The notes beneath the pieces were generated by a model that saw only the letters and a list, made by a program, of their open reading frames with translations, searched no databases and was not told where the DNA came from. A DNA stretch of 64,000 bases, from NCBI GenBank assembly GCA_903869265.1, contig CAIPYE010000001.1, positions 62,001 to 126,000 on the forward strand. Direction: 5' to 3'. Numbering within the stretch: the stretch's first letter is position 1; each line of letters begins with the position of its first letter. Positions 11,725-59,929 of this stretch are shown one piece after another. A program made the position numbers and the translations under genes. Origin of the DNA: an uncultured delta proteobacterium (GTDB lineage: Bacteria > Desulfobacterota > Desulfobulbia > Desulfobulbales > Desulfurivibrionaceae).

Positions 11725-12009
11725 TCCCTATGGCCATTCAATAAATATTGAAAATCCAACATGTTACTGATTTCAAACTAAAAAACGCTTAACCATTTTC
11801 AGATAATTTTCTTCATTTTTAACCATTTTCTAACTTTTCAGTCCCCAGATCGTTCCCAGAATTCGAGTTCCCTGTCCAAATTTTATTGCTTTAGGACCCC
11901 AACTGCAATCTCAAGGTCTGAAGACGAATTTCTTTTAATTTATACAGGGGCAATTGTCAATCTACGATAAAAATGAACCTATGATGGACAGAACCTGACG
12001 CCGAGGGGC
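11725..12009. other. AT-rich gene-free flank inside the island
   Basis: No open frame with a credible ribosome site is visible. The stretch is clearly richer in A and T than the backbone and contains the pair of TTAACCATTTTC repeats described separately. An integrase gene, expected next to such a site, is absent. Confidence 0.6.
11789..11830. repeat. Two direct repeats TTAACCATTTTC 30 bp apart
   Basis: TTAACCATTTTC is found at 11789-11800 and again at 11819-11830, a period of exactly 30 bp (about three helical turns). The pair lies 65-105 bp inside the island from the truncated tRNA-Leu copy. Tyrosine integrases often bind short direct repeats (arm sites) at such places, so these may be leftover arm sites; this is inference. 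Confidence 0.6.
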
Positions 12010-12058
12010 TTTACATTACCAACAATACCATCTATAGTGCTATTAATAGTGAACTATA
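12010..12058 (+). promoter_or_regulatory. Sigma-70 promoter with nested palindromic operator for the first toxin-antitoxin pair
   Basis: TTTACA (12010-12015) and TATAGT (12033-12038) are separated by 17 bp. The -10 box is the left arm of an inverted repeat whose right arm ACTATA is at 12053-12058. Between them lies the perfect 10-bp palindrome CTATTAATAG (12040-12049). The antitoxin start is 32 bp downstream. Palindromes over the -10 box fit autorepression by antitoxin or toxin-antitoxin complex, which is standard for type II systems. Confidence 0.7.
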
Positions 12059-12089
12059 CGTGCCGTGAAGAATGCCAAGGAGGGATTGC

Positions 12090-12347
12090 ATGCCAAATGT
12101 ATCTGCCAATGACCTGAAGACAAAAGGTATTTCCGCCATTGAGGCCGTCCTTGCCCACCAGCCGGAAGCGATCATCTCCGTGCGCGGCAAAGAGCGATTC
12201 GTAGTGATGGACATGGAGCATTACCACTACCTGAGGGAATGCGAGCTGGAATCTGCCCTTGCCCAGACCCGTGCTGACCTCGCCGAAGGCCGTTTTATTA
12301 AGGAAAGCGCCGAAGAACACCTAGCTCGTCTCAAAGGTGCTGCGTGA
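12090..12347 (+). CDS. Phd/YefM-family antitoxin
   Basis: 85 residues, beginning MPNVSANDLKTKGISAIEAVL. The pattern of a short beta strand, a helix with DLKTKG, then ISVRGKERFVVMDMEHY is the Phd/YefM DNA-binding fold. The C-terminal part (ALAQTRADLAEGRF) would wrap the toxin. I chose ATG 12090 rather than ATG 12072 because AAGGAGGG lies 5 nt before it and encoding it would make little sense. Its stop overlaps the GTG start of the toxin by 4 nt, so the two are translationally coupled. Confidence 0.87.
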   Translation: MPNVSANDLKTKGISAIEAVLAHQPEAIISVRGKERFVVMDMEHYHYLRECELESALAQTRADLAEGRFIKESAEEHLARLKGAA

Positions 12348-12619
12348 GCTGGTCGCTGGTCTTTACCAAACAATATGAAAAACGCGCCCTGCGATTTTTG
12401 AAGCGTCACCCCGAGCTGGAAAAACAGTATCTCAAAACACTGCAACTGATGGAAGTCAACCCGTTCCATCCCTCACTCCGCCTGCACCCTCTCTCCGGGC
12501 GTCTCACAGGTTTGCACTCAGTTTCTATCACCCTCTCTTATCGCATCACCCTTGATTTTCTGATTCAGGAGCAAGAGATTATCCCGGTAAACGTGGGCGA
12601 TCACGATTCAGTGTACTGA
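12344..12619 (+). CDS. RelE/ParE-superfamily toxin
   Basis: 91 residues from a GTG start in the GTGA overlap with the antitoxin. It shows the RelE/ParE-fold pattern: basic N-terminal helix (FTKQYEKRALRFLKRHPELEKQYLKTLQLM), then SLRLHPLSGRLTGLHSVSITLSYRITLDF and a final strand IIPVNVGDHDSVY. This fold gives ribosome-dependent mRNA interferases or gyrase poisons. The GDHDxVY ending is of the type seen in YafQ/RelE-like mRNA interferases, so I favour that, but the activity is not proven by sequence. Confidence 0.85.
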   Translation: MSWSLVFTKQYEKRALRFLKRHPELEKQYLKTLQLMEVNPFHPSLRLHPLSGRLTGLHSVSITLSYRITLDFLIQEQEIIPVNVGDHDSVY

Positions 12620-12752
12620 GCATACAATTACTGATAATGCTTTTCAGAGTTTTAATCGACGAAAAACGGCTGATCACCCATTCTCATGCATTCCAGTCCA
12701 CCCCACCGGAATGACGTGTTGACGGACGATTTTTGTCTGCTGTAAACGAAGA

Positions 12753-12781
12753 TTGACCGCAACAACTTTTTGTATTACAAT
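12753..12781 (+). promoter_or_regulatory. Sigma-70 promoter of the second toxin-antitoxin pair
   Basis: TTGACC (12753-12758) and TACAAT (12776-12781) have the ideal 17-bp spacing. They lie 26 bp before ATG 12808, with an AGGAGG ribosome site between. Its presence shows that the second pair does not depend on read-through from the first. Confidence 0.75.
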
Positions 12782-12807
12782 GTCATTCACAATAGGAGGA
12801 AAATACT

Positions 12808-13071
12808 ATGTCTGCGAATGCATTGGTTCAAGCCCGCATTAATGAGGCCGTAAAAAAGGAAGCCACAACTGTTTTGGCGAAAATGGGTTTGACCGTATCG
12901 GATGCGGTGCGGCTGTTGCTGACCAAAGTGGCGCGTGAGCACACTTTGCCGTTCGACGTGAGAACGCCTAACGCCAAAACCAAGGCCGCGATGCAGGAAC
13001 TTGAAACCGGAAAGGGGAAGCGCTTCAAGAACGTAAAGGACTTGATGGCCGACATGAATGCGGACGATTGA
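12808..13071 (+). CDS. RelB/DinJ-family antitoxin
   Basis: 87 residues. The N-terminal ribbon-helix-helix VQARINEAVKKEATTVLAKMGLTVSDAVR is interrupted here only by normal family variation and is typical of RelB/DinJ. The PF(D/E)VRTPNAKT segment follows, and then an acidic toxin-binding tail. AGGAGG lies 8 nt before the ATG. It binds its own promoter and neutralises the YafQ-type toxin, whose gene starts 14 nt before this one stops. Confidence 0.92.
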   Translation: MSANALVQARINEAVKKEATTVLAKMGLTVSDAVRLLLTKVAREHTLPFDVRTPNAKTKAAMQELETGKGKRFKNVKDLMADMNADD

Positions 13072-13339
13072 GCGTTCTTCCGCCTTCAAGCGGGATTATA
13101 AACGGGAAGCGAAAGGGCCACACCGGGCCGCGTTGGAAGGTGAACTTTTCGATGTGTTGACAGCGCTGGCAACAGACCAACCGCTGGCAGAGAAGTACCG
13201 GGACCATGCACTGGTGGGCGAGTGGATGGGATACCGTGAATGTCACATCAAGCCCGACCTGTTATTGATCTACAAGAAACCAGATACCAAAACGCTACGG
13301 CTGGCACGACTCGGTTCTCACTCAGAGCTTGATTTGTAA
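13058..13339 (+). CDS. YafQ-family mRNA interferase toxin
   Basis: 93 residues. The start MRTIERSSAFKRDYKRE, the middle LVGEWMGYRECHIKPDLLLIYK and the end LRLARLGSHSEL are characteristic of YafQ, in which the His of the final GSHSEL motif is catalytic. In YafQ the toxin cleaves mRNA on the ribosome. It overlaps the DinJ-like antitoxin by 14 nt in another frame. It stands between the antitoxin and the large primase-helicase, all plus strand. Confidence 0.92.
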   Translation: MRTIERSSAFKRDYKREAKGPHRAALEGELFDVLTALATDQPLAEKYRDHALVGEWMGYRECHIKPDLLLIYKKPDTKTLRLARLGSHSELDL

Positions 13340-13404
13340 TGGCTGATTGATCTTCCGTTTTGTGTCCGTGAGATATTACGACAAATTGCCAAACGTATCG
13401 TAGC

Positions 13405-57385: not shown

Positions 57386-57537
57386 CATCCCGGAACACGG
57401 TGTAACTCCGTGGCGGTCCCGCCGCTGTAATCGGGGATGCTGGTCGGCACAGGGAATTTCCCGGTCACTCCCAGAGCGTATCACTCTGGGGGGAAGGCCG
57501 CAGACCAGCAGACGATCCGAAAGTCAGAAGACCTGGT
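57386..57537 (+). promoter_or_regulatory. Cobalamin (adenosylcobalamin-type) riboswitch
   Basis: The expected conserved blocks occur in order: GGAACACGGTG, then GGTCCCGCCGCTGTAATCGGGG, GGTCACTCCCAGA, a hairpin CCCAGAGCG...CTCTGGGG, GGGAAGGCCGCAGACC and GATCCGAAAGTCAGAAGACC. The CCGCCGCTGTAA block and GAAAGTCAGAAGACC end are the B12-box elements. An intrinsic terminator follows 57 nt later, so ligand binding would stop transcription before the peptide and radical SAM genes. A gene-free stretch of about 240 bp lies between tRNA-Leu(UAG) and the aptamer. Confidence 0.93.
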
Positions 57538-57593
57538 GATAATGTTTTTCACGCATGTATTGCTGTTCGTCTGGGTATTCTAATGGAAACAGA

Positions 57594-57632
57594 ACCCGGA
57601 GTGACTCCTATAGGGGTTGCTCCGGGTTTTTT
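57594..57632 (+). terminator. Intrinsic terminator of the cobalamin riboswitch
   Basis: ACCCGGAG (57594-57601) pairs with CTCCGGGT (57620-57627), with inner ACTCC/GGGGT-type pairing, and a run of nine T follows. Its place between aptamer and first gene makes it the expression platform. Confidence 0.92.
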
Positions 57633-57668
57633 TTATGCACGCAGGTCAACAACCACGAGGAGAACACC

Positions 57669-57797
57669 ATGAAAACCCAGAAACAGATCATTTCATACCG
57701 TCGGCGCTGCAATCTGATCGGTCAGGGAACCGGCCTTTCCCATTATATCCTGCTCGCCCCCAGCGCGAACACAACCCCAGAGGACGGCAGCAACTAA
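57669..57797 (+). CDS. 42-residue candidate RiPP precursor peptide (CbpA-like)
   Basis: Start ATG 57669 follows GAGGAG by 6 nt. The peptide begins MKTQKQIISYRRRCNLIGQG and ends PSANTTPEDGSN. It has one Cys (position 14), a basic YRRRC block, a Gly-rich turn, SHYILL, and an acidic/Thr tail. No signal peptide or TM helix. Its TAA shares one base with the ATG of the radical SAM gene (TAATG), so both are translated together. A short peptide coupled to a radical SAM/SPASM enzyme is the standard layout of a modified-peptide pathway. I recall the family names CbpA/CbpB for a cobalamin-riboswitch-linked pair like this, but could not check. Confidence 0.75.
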   Translation: MKTQKQIISYRRRCNLIGQGTGLSHYILLAPSANTTPEDGSN

Positions 57798-59188
57798 TGG
57801 CACAAACAGACAAACTGACCGCAACGGCCATTTTCGCCAACACCGGCCATGGCCCGAATTTTTCCCTGCTGGAGATCGGCGACCCTGACCGGGTTGCGGT
57901 TGTTGAAGCGGAGACGGCCTATTGGGCCCTGGTTGACCGCCATGACTTGCCCCAGGCCCTGGCTGGTTCCATGGTCGAAGACTTCATGGCCCGCGCACCG
58001 GAGTTTCATGCGGAAATGGATCACCTGCGCACGGGCTTGCAGCTCTCCGCCGCGTATGTGAACCCCACAGAACGCTGCAACCTGAATTGCAGCTACTGCT
58101 ACCTTCCAGAAGAGATGCGCAAAAACGGCATCGATATGGGCGAGGAAAAGCTGATGCTCGCCCTTGAACGGCTGGGGGAACATTTCCGGAAGATTTTGCC
58201 GGAGGGGGTAAAGCCCCAGCTTATTTTTCACGGCAGCGAACCCATGGTTGCCAGGGATGCTGTGTTTGCCGCGATTTCGAGATTTAAAGACGACTTTCAC
58301 TTCGGCATCCAGACCAATGCCACCCTGCTTGACGACACGGCAATCAGTTTTTTAAGGGAGCACCGGGTCGGCATCGGCCTATCCCTGGATGCCCCCACCG
58401 CAGAGGTCGCCAACCGCACCAGGAAGAACTGGCAGGGCAACGGATATTACGACACGGTTGTATCGGTGATCAAAAAACTCGCTGATTACCCGGCCCTGAA
58501 TGTCATAACCACCGTAACCCAAGCCAACGTGCACACCCTGACCGAAATGGTGGACTTTTATCACGGGCTGGGGGTGCGGGTGGTAATGCTCAATCCGGTG
58601 CGCTGTACCCGCCAAGGCGGAATGGACCTGAAACCGGACAACCATGTCCTGGCCGAGGCCTTCTTCAAGGCGCTGGACCGCTCTTTTGAGCTTCTTGAAC
58701 AAACCGGCAGAAAGCTCGTCATCGCCAACTTTGCCAATGTTCTGGCCGGAGTCATCGGCCCGACCGGTCGCAGACTGATGTGCGACATCTCTCCCTGTGG
58801 AGGCGGCCGTTGTTTCTTTGCCGTTTCCGCAGACGGCGAGGTTGTGCCGTGCAGCGAATTCATCGGCATGAACGAGTTTTCCGGTGGGAACATCTTCCGT
58901 GATGATCCTGCCGATATTCTTGCCAGCAAGCCCTTCCAGGAAGTAACAAACAGGAAGGTGGAAAAAATTGTCCCCTGTGCAGGATGCGCCATTCGGCATT
59001 TCTGTGGAGCACCCTGTCCTGCCGAAATCTACAAGGTGTCTGGCGATATCAATGCACCGAGCCCCTACTGTAGTTTCTTTGAGGAGCAGGTCCGCCATGC
59101 CTTCCGTATAATCGCCCAGCAACGGGAGGATGCCTATCTCTGGGACAGCTGGCAGACCGAAACAGAAATGTCCTATTGCTGGAAATAA
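57797..59188 (+). CDS. Peptide-modifying radical SAM/SPASM enzyme (CbpB-like)
   Basis: 463 residues from ATG 57797, which overlaps the precursor stop by one base. Residues 1-85 are a distinct N-terminal domain. The [4Fe-4S]-SAM motif CNLNCSYC (C94, C98, C101) follows, then the partial TIM barrel with HGSEPMV in the GGE-like position. The C-terminal SPASM region has many Cys: CDISPCGGGRC, VVPCSEF, VPCAGCAIRHFCGAPCPAEIY and SPYCSFF, for auxiliary Fe-S clusters. Such enzymes make C-C, C-S or epimer changes in peptides. The riboswitch ties expression to cobalamin shortage. The bond made is unknown. No transporter or protease gene is next to it; a terminator follows. Confidence 0.88.
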   Translation: MAQTDKLTATAIFANTGHGPNFSLLEIGDPDRVAVVEAETAYWALVDRHDLPQALAGSMVEDFMARAPEFHAEMDHLRTGLQLSAAYVNPTERCNLNCSYCYLPEEMRKNGIDMGEEKLMLALERLGEHFRKILPEGVKPQLIFHGSEPMVARDAVFAAISRFKDDFHFGIQTNATLLDDTAISFLREHRVGIGLSLDAPTAEVANRTRKNWQGNGYYDTVVSVIKKLADYPALNVITTVTQANVHTLTEMVDFYHGLGVRVVMLNPVRCTRQGGMDLKPDNHVLAEAFFKALDRSFELLEQTGRKLVIANFANVLAGVIGPTGRRLMCDISPCGGGRCFFAVSADGEVVPCSEFIGMNEFSGGNIFRDDPADILASKPFQEVTNRKVEKIVPCAGCAIRHFCGAPCPAEIYKVSGDINAPSPYCSFFEEQVRHAFRIIAQQREDAYLWDSWQTETEMSYCWK

Positions 59189-59350: not shown

Positions 59351-59929
59351 ATGAAAGTCGTCGCTTTTAACGGAAGCGCCCGCAAGGGAGGAAATACCGC
59401 AAAATTATTGAATACCGCCTTGGACGAGCTGGCCCTGCAAGGGATCGATACGGAACTGGTGGAATTGTCAGGCCAACCGATCTCCGGCTGCACCGCCTGC
59501 TATAAGTGTTTCAAAAACAAAGACAATCGTTGCGCCGTAAAAAAAGACATCATCAACGATTGCCTTGCCAAAATGATTGCGGCGGATGGCATTCTCCTGG
59601 GTTCCCCCACCTACTTCGCCGATGTCTCCGCAGGAATGAAGGCTCTAATTGAGCGGTGTGGCATGGTTTCCCGGGCAAACGGCGATCTGTTCAAACGCAA
59701 GGCCGGGGCCGGAGTGGTCGCGGTCCGTCGGGCAGGGGCCATTCAAGTGTTCAACTCCCTCAACGCCTTTTTCCTGATCGGCCAGATGATCGTGGTGGGT
59801 TCTTCTTACTGGAACATCGGCATCGGCAGGGAACCGGGCGAGGTGGCCAACGACGAGGAAGGCATGAAAACCATGCACGACCTGGGACGCAACATGGCCT
59901 GGCTCCTCCAGAAAATCAAAGCGGAATAA
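59351..59929 (+). CDS. NAD(P)H-dependent flavin reductase / iron-sulfur flavoprotein-like
   Basis: 192 residues of flavodoxin fold. FMN-binding NGSARKGGNTAKLL is at the N-terminus, and GSPTYFADVSAGMKALIERCG follows. Between them is ISGCTACYKCFKNKDNRCAVKKD, with closely spaced cysteines as in iron-sulfur flavoproteins, though the spacing is not the compact Isf motif. AGGAG lies about 8 nt before ATG 59351. A terminator separates it from the peptide unit, so it has its own transcription. Substrate unknown; this family reduces quinones, oxygen or metals with NAD(P)H. Confidence 0.87.
   Translation: MKVVAFNGSARKGGNTAKLLNTALDELALQGIDTELVELSGQPISGCTACYKCFKNKDNRCAVKKDIINDCLAKMIAADGILLGSPTYFADVSAGMKALIERCGMVSRANGDLFKRKAGAGVVAVRRAGAIQVFNSLNAFFLIGQMIVVGSSYWNIGIGREPGEVANDEEGMKTMHDLGRNMAWLLQKIKAE

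Follow-up and report, generated by a model that had tools for sequence, protein, structure and literature searches.

What does the short open reading frame (ORF) at positions 57669 to 57797 (plus strand) encode in the 64,000-nucleotide stretch of DNA analyzed here (the window), and what is its product for? The frame, cbpA, translates to MKTQKQIISYRRRCNLIGQGTGLSHYILLAPSANTTPEDGSN*, a 42-amino-acid peptide with one cysteine, a YRRRC pattern, and an SHY pattern, exactly as a first-pass annotation had described it. A Shine-Dalgarno-like GAGGAG was read from the sequence at 57657 to 57662 (plus strand), six bases upstream of the ATG at 57669, and the stop codon overlaps the ATG of the next gene, cbpB, in the sequence TAATG (57795 to 57799); ORF reading of the opposite strand across this stretch revealed no convincing competing gene. 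Comparison of the first 33 codons with those of nine congeners gave a pS of 0.16 to 0.57 and a pN of 0.01 to 0.04. We regard the ORF as a real gene that purifying selection maintains and that is coupled with a gene for a radical SAM/SPASM protein.

That gene, cbpB (57797 to 59185, plus strand; 462 amino acids), scores 676.8 bits against NCBIfam profile TIGR04163 (CbpB), for which the cut-off is 375, and its product contains the Pfam domains Radical_SAM and SPASM. The window peptide scores 25.8 bits (E value of 5.4e-06) against the matching CbpA profile, TIGR04164, which is under that profile's cut-off of 35; automatic annotation may therefore overlook cbpA, and membership of the peptide rests on its position directly 5' of cbpB and on a core shared at 74 of 76 loci. 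The pair is thus CbpA/CbpB, a catalogued family, for which no function or product was found in the literature that we searched. The earlier view of the peptide as a radical SAM substrate is borne out, inasmuch as it is a predicted CbpA precursor paired with a radical SAM/SPASM gene, but the accompanying view that it resembles no common substrate class has to be given up, since the enzyme lies far above the family cut-off even though the peptide does not reach its own.

CbpB has the features of a radical SAM/SPASM maturase. The CX3CX2C motif (C94, C98, and C101; 58076 to 58099, plus strand) is invariant in 58 aligned CbpB sequences, the SPASM region shows a seven-cysteine pattern (C334-x12-G-x4-C352, C394-x2-C397-x5-C403-x3-C407-x17-C425), and each of these cysteines is either invariant or conserved to 90% or more; two further residues, C329 and E354, never vary. 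In the AlphaFold2 model (pLDDT of 91.3), the closest solved structure among the matches listed is CteB, the SCIFF thioether maturase (Z of 35 and rmsd of 3.1 over 375 residues). This alignment starts at residue 20-21 of the CbpB model and residue 1-2 of the CteB chain and so includes the N-terminal domain of CbpB (residues 21 to 78; 57857 to 58030, plus strand), which, from the model, is probably a peptide-recognition (RRE-like) domain. Single-thioether chemistry of the CteB, PapB, or QhpD type is plausible for a peptide with one cysteine, yet CbpB falls far below the equivalog cut-offs of these enzymes (105.1 bits against 425 for TIGR03974, SCIFF; 133.6 bits against 340 for NF047865, PapB), and CbpA matched no SCIFF, PapB, or QhpD-type precursor family in NCBIfam.

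Counting as CbpB homologues those above the TIGR04163 cut-off, we found CbpB in 36 of the 395 genomes from Desulfobacterota, the phylum of the window, in 36 of 246 genomes of one archaeal phylum, reached via a Geoglobus MAG, and on a plasmid of the alphaproteobacterium Methylovirgula. A homologous cbpA ORF with the same core lies 5' of cbpB at 74 of the 76 loci from these three sources; of the remaining two, one (L140) has a frameshifted copy, and the other (L166) carries decayed cbpA and cbpB, with frameshifts in both, so that the pair appears to have been lost together. A search for C-x(2-12)-GL[AST]H[YF] gave hits in frame 5' of cbpB at the same 74 of 76 loci; 2.1 Mb searched on both strands gave a single further hit, and the full window gave one in all, a rarity that places the cbpA pattern beyond chance. 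Because any hit must contain C, G, L, and H, the sole evidence that these four residues are invariant is the small number of loci without a hit. The Methylovirgula copy, already annotated as cbpA, carries the same core. On that plasmid (Methylovirgula sp. HY1 plasmid pHY1; positions 11795 to 13374 of the extracted locus, L101), the annotated cbpA-cbpB pair lies about 2 kb from pqqA-pqqD-pqqE, with a second radical SAM gene and sufE upstream.

Counted column by column, 39 bacterial and 35 archaeal peptides place the conserved core of the window peptide at residues 10 to 28 (YRRRC-NLIGQGT-GLSHY-IL; 57696 to 57752, plus strand), within a consensus of (R)xxC-x(4-7)-GL[S/T]H[Y/F]. The alignment of homologues that the first-pass annotation had called for does show a conserved Cys, His, and aromatic residue. 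Its YRRRC pattern survives in part: the Cys is general and the Arg at C-3 largely so (all bacterial peptides and 22 of 35 archaeal ones), while the first Tyr and the other Arg residues vary among the 74 peptides. All 74 have exactly one Cys, which agrees with the earlier remark that a sactipeptide cysteine ladder is lacking and sets CbpA apart from sactipeptides, with their several cysteines and several thioethers. The Ser of SHY is replaced by Thr and once by Ala, and the Tyr by Phe in 6 of 74 peptides, which argues that those hydroxyls are not essential; the Cys, His, Gly, and Leu, all four required by the search pattern, remain candidates for the chemistry. Bacterial peptides are 29 to 49 residues long and nearly all archaeal ones 25 to 36, with start codons estimated; bacterial tails are variable and often Lys rich, and archaeal tails end in SPF or ALF. 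The C-terminal TPEDGSN, suggested earlier as a possible removable follower, is not a conserved one, as the tail varies even within the genus and is absent elsewhere.

The key to cbpAB function is a cobalamin riboswitch, which the first-pass annotation of the ORF left unmentioned. An aptamer (RF00174; cmscan score of 65.6 bits against a gathering score of 31.5, E value of 1.3e-14) occupies 57392 to 57532 on the plus strand, and the gap between it and cbpA holds a strong intrinsic terminator hairpin (57591 to 57630, plus strand; an 18-bp stem and then a T run), the likely expression platform. The terminator region folds at -31.7 kcal/mol (z of -7.4 against shuffles); the count of terminator-like sites in the aptamer-cbpA region was not above chance. 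Transcriptional B12 riboswitches are normally laid out in this way. The riboswitch also lies 5' of cbpA at 31 of 33 further bacterial loci (two of the 33 from the same genome), or 32 of 34 with the window. The two loci that do not have one (L065/L025 and L066/L026) lie inside cbi operons, in the order cbiA-cbiC-[cbpA-cbpB]-cbiX-cbiM; at another locus (L067), cbpB is convergent with cbiB-cobD-cbiHGFED, and in seven archaeal loci cobT stands directly 3' of cbpB. In most of these seven, a ribbon-helix-helix protein fused to an AIRS-type domain is encoded divergently from cbpA; the arrangement was seen at L132 to L135, L137, L141, L149, and L157, and at L160 the gene is downstream of cbpA-cbpB. 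This protein may be a regulator sensing a cobamide precursor. CobT (PF02277) was detected in 38 of 40 CbpB-positive and 23 of 40 CbpB-negative genomes. In genomes of one family within the same taxonomic order (G014, G052, G088, G117, G171, and G281), at least two CobT matches were seen, mostly without a second ThiC copy, and these organisms may use yet another lower ligand; in G014, the two matches are pieces of one place.

In most genomes cbpAB is a stand-alone transcription unit, and no conserved neighbors besides B12 genes were found. Among the loci, cbpAB has no conserved neighbor that would serve as a dedicated peptidase, a transporter, or a second tailoring enzyme. TldD and TldE are a peptidase pair that processes some RiPPs, and at one archaeal locus (L019) tldD and tldE lie directly 5' of cbpA-cbpB, about 0.3 to 2.8 kb upstream of cbpB; as they adjoin it only there, TldD-TldE was rejected as a dedicated peptidase. 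At L164, two genes read by eye as MetE-like (core methionine synthase) lie directly 5' of cbpA-cbpB. In the window, a gene for a flavodoxin-like FMN reductase (59351 to 59926) follows cbpB; it stays beside the site throughout the genus with or without cbpAB and is therefore probably unrelated.

The window's own genome narrows the step at which cbpAB could act. Neither CbiC nor CbiD was found in this 99% complete genome, which has CobT-CobS and a riboswitch-controlled BtuB-BtuF-TonB-BtuC-BtuD region (the Btu and TonB names were assigned by reading, not by profile search); the only two cobalamin riboswitches found in it are those of cbpAB and of the Btu region. Taken together, this places the role of cbpAB outside corrin ring synthesis. 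A strict link between cbpAB and de novo B12 synthesis was likewise rejected, as the presence of CbpB does not correlate with that of CbiD across the genus. The same genomes bear on the idea that CbpAB makes a metallophore or other cobalt ligand, acting through Cys and His, for delivery to CbiX or for the uptake of cobalt. The placement of cbpAB between cbiC and cbiX-cbiM in two families and near cbiM/cbiO at one archaeal locus (L137) would suit it, but the window's genome and two congeners (G402 and G413) are CbpB positive without CbiD (and in the window's case also without CbiC) and so have no corrin synthesis to feed. Cobalt delivery is weakened by such genomes and gives no reason for the exclusion of bzaF described below; we consider it improbable. 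A product that spares B12 as a replacement cofactor under cobamide shortage, as MetE does for MetH, would account for the riboswitch control and for the stand-alone unit in most genomes, but it predicts neither that exclusion nor the co-location with cbi genes and cobT, and we hold it to be decidedly improbable.

The decisive observation is the mutual exclusion of cbpAB and bzaF, the gene for BzaF, an anaerobic lower-ligand synthase whose product is 5-hydroxybenzimidazole. At least two ThiC-family copies are present in 2 of 75 CbpB-positive and 34 of 85 CbpB-negative genomes (Fisher's exact test, P = 2e-9, with phylogeny ignored). NCBIfam profiles do not separate BzaF from ThiC, and PDB searches match ThiC structures only, so a ThiC tree and diagnostic columns were used to tell them apart; CbpB-negative copies were drawn mainly from genomes with at least two, and the tree accordingly tests identity, not frequency. 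A clade with support of 1.0 holds the copies that adjoin cobT, cobD, or cbiB (L177, L178, L180 to L182, and L218); it comprises 21 copies from CbpB-negative genomes and one fragment from G410. Ten archaeal copies, all from CbpB-negative genomes, form its sister group. All other ThiC-family copies of the 40 CbpB-positive genomes sampled fall outside the BzaF clade, and the 31 BzaF-type copies, the G410 fragment apart, all come from CbpB-negative genomes. Six alignment positions (N66S, D96E, T162A, D227N, P231A, and L249N) set the 40 CbpB-positive copies apart from every one of the 31 that are BzaF type, whether from bacteria or archaea; in the CbpB-positive copies, four of these positions hold in 40 of 40 and two in 39 of 40. 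G410, which is CbpB positive with 7% contamination, has the BzaF-type fragment and two unlike ThiC sequences of two lineages and is probably a mixed bin. The BzaF of Geobacter sulfurreducens likewise sits in a cbi cluster (PMC7726332), and we read the clade as BzaF from the tree, operon context, riboswitch, and diagnostic residues, rather than from comparison with a characterized reference sequence. Several to many CbpB-negative genomes also have no BzaF-type copy, so that loss of BzaF does not require CbpAB, and across phyla the exclusion is partly phylogenetic.

Within the window's genus, 10 CbpB-positive genomes have one ThiC copy, and six CbpB-negative genomes (G406 to G409, G412, and G414) have two. 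In all six, the second copy is BzaF type with its own cobalamin riboswitch 5', and it occupies one syntenic site, after a DAHP synthase gene and before a gene for phosphomannomutase, a site common to a neighboring genus (G261). The cbpAB site has the order tig, tRNA, [cbpAB], FMN reductase, and in CbpB-negative congeners it retains differently decayed remnants: three cbpB fragments in G408, 65 bases in G412, and about 100 bases in G414. No cbpB remnants were detectable at the site in G406 and G409; the contig of G407 stops short of it. On a tree of the 2.8-kb clpX/clpP/tig region, there are five state changes in the genus, giving four independent supported pairs, all reciprocal, although four pairs fall short of significance by the sign test (P = 0.125). 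The remnants and the reciprocal exchange indicate that the cbpAB and bzaF units are both old in the family, with one kept per genome, and this one-of-two retention reads, from the genomes, as the signature of redundant function. Loss traded against a metabolic gene sits poorly with the idea that CbpA is an exported RiPP, antimicrobial or signal, whose membership of the B12 regulon is incidental. SPASM maturases do often make such peptides, but export and immunity genes are not conserved beside cbpAB and the core is conserved across two domains of life; we give this idea almost no weight.

Read most simply, the mutual exclusion would have CbpAB provide the same thing as BzaF, a lower ligand for CobT. 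We favor, by a modest degree, the reading that CbpAB substitutes for BzaF and, by a peptide-derived route, provides a lower ligand or else something that removes the need for a BzaF-derived one, upstream of or alongside CobT. The riboswitch layout, the pairing of the genes, the conserved core, the genomic association, and the exclusion of bzaF with reciprocal loss can all be read from the sequences. Replacement of BzaF by cbpAB is well supported; the chemistry and the product are inferences, and the evidence for lower-ligand biosynthesis by cbpAB is genomic, namely the bzaF exclusion and the cobT linkage. Counting against substitution, the only ThiC-family gene found in G140 (L066, 5503 to 6786, minus strand), ThiC type by the tree, lies inside the cbi operon together with cbpAB. 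On this reading, CbpB would be the radical SAM/SPASM enzyme that matures CbpA, a minimal precursor of the RiPP type. Under cobamide shortage, the riboswitch would be unbound and cbpA-cbpB transcribed; the N-terminal domain of CbpB would bind CbpA, and the enzyme would radically modify the C...GL[S/T]H[Y/F] core, presumably by a single cross-link (a thioether from Cys or a bond at His). The product, whole or, as we suppose, trimmed by a general peptidase, would then enter cobamide completion. It is possible, though we lean against it, that this product is itself the base that CobT attaches.

CbpAB might instead make no base, the modified peptide serving purinyl or other non-benzimidazole cobamides, for example as a corrinoid-binding peptide that offers His as axial ligand, or by assisting CobT or the trafficking of cobamides. 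This would explain equally the bzaF exclusion, the riboswitch control, and the archaeal cobT neighbor, and the His is conserved throughout CbpA; moreover, among predicted cobamide producers, the 42% that lack any known gene for a benzimidazole or a phenol may make purinyl ones (PMC6461909). However, many CbpB-negative genomes are without a BzaF-type copy, so such cobamides evidently need no CbpAB, and a corrinoid carrier of 26 residues is unlikely. We consider this role unlikely, if a serious contender.

If CbpAB does substitute for BzaF, it must use another chemistry: like cbpAB, bzaF forms a cobalamin-riboswitch unit in the same genus and has cobT and cbi neighbors, but BzaF is an unrelated protein with no peptide substrate, acting on aminoimidazole ribotide (PMC7726332). 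The PQQ system (PqqA/PqqD/PqqE) resembles cbpAB in pairing a short peptide with a SPASM enzyme and in possibly yielding a peptide-derived cofactor piece; it differs in its core, in having a separate RRE protein, and in its partners, as PqqB, PqqC, and peptidase partners are not conserved beside cbpAB. PQQ and mycofactocin are precedents for a peptide as a cofactor source.

Although the family itself was already named, its link to lower-ligand provision appears to be new, and reciprocal loss against bzaF gives CbpA/CbpB a testable job. In a 2018 survey, 42% of bacterial cobamide producers had a lower ligand that could not be predicted (PMC6461909); some of those genomes, and some archaea, would be explained by cbpAB. 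Should the base itself prove to be peptide derived, it would stand beside PQQ and mycofactocin and would be the first such cofactor piece inside B12.
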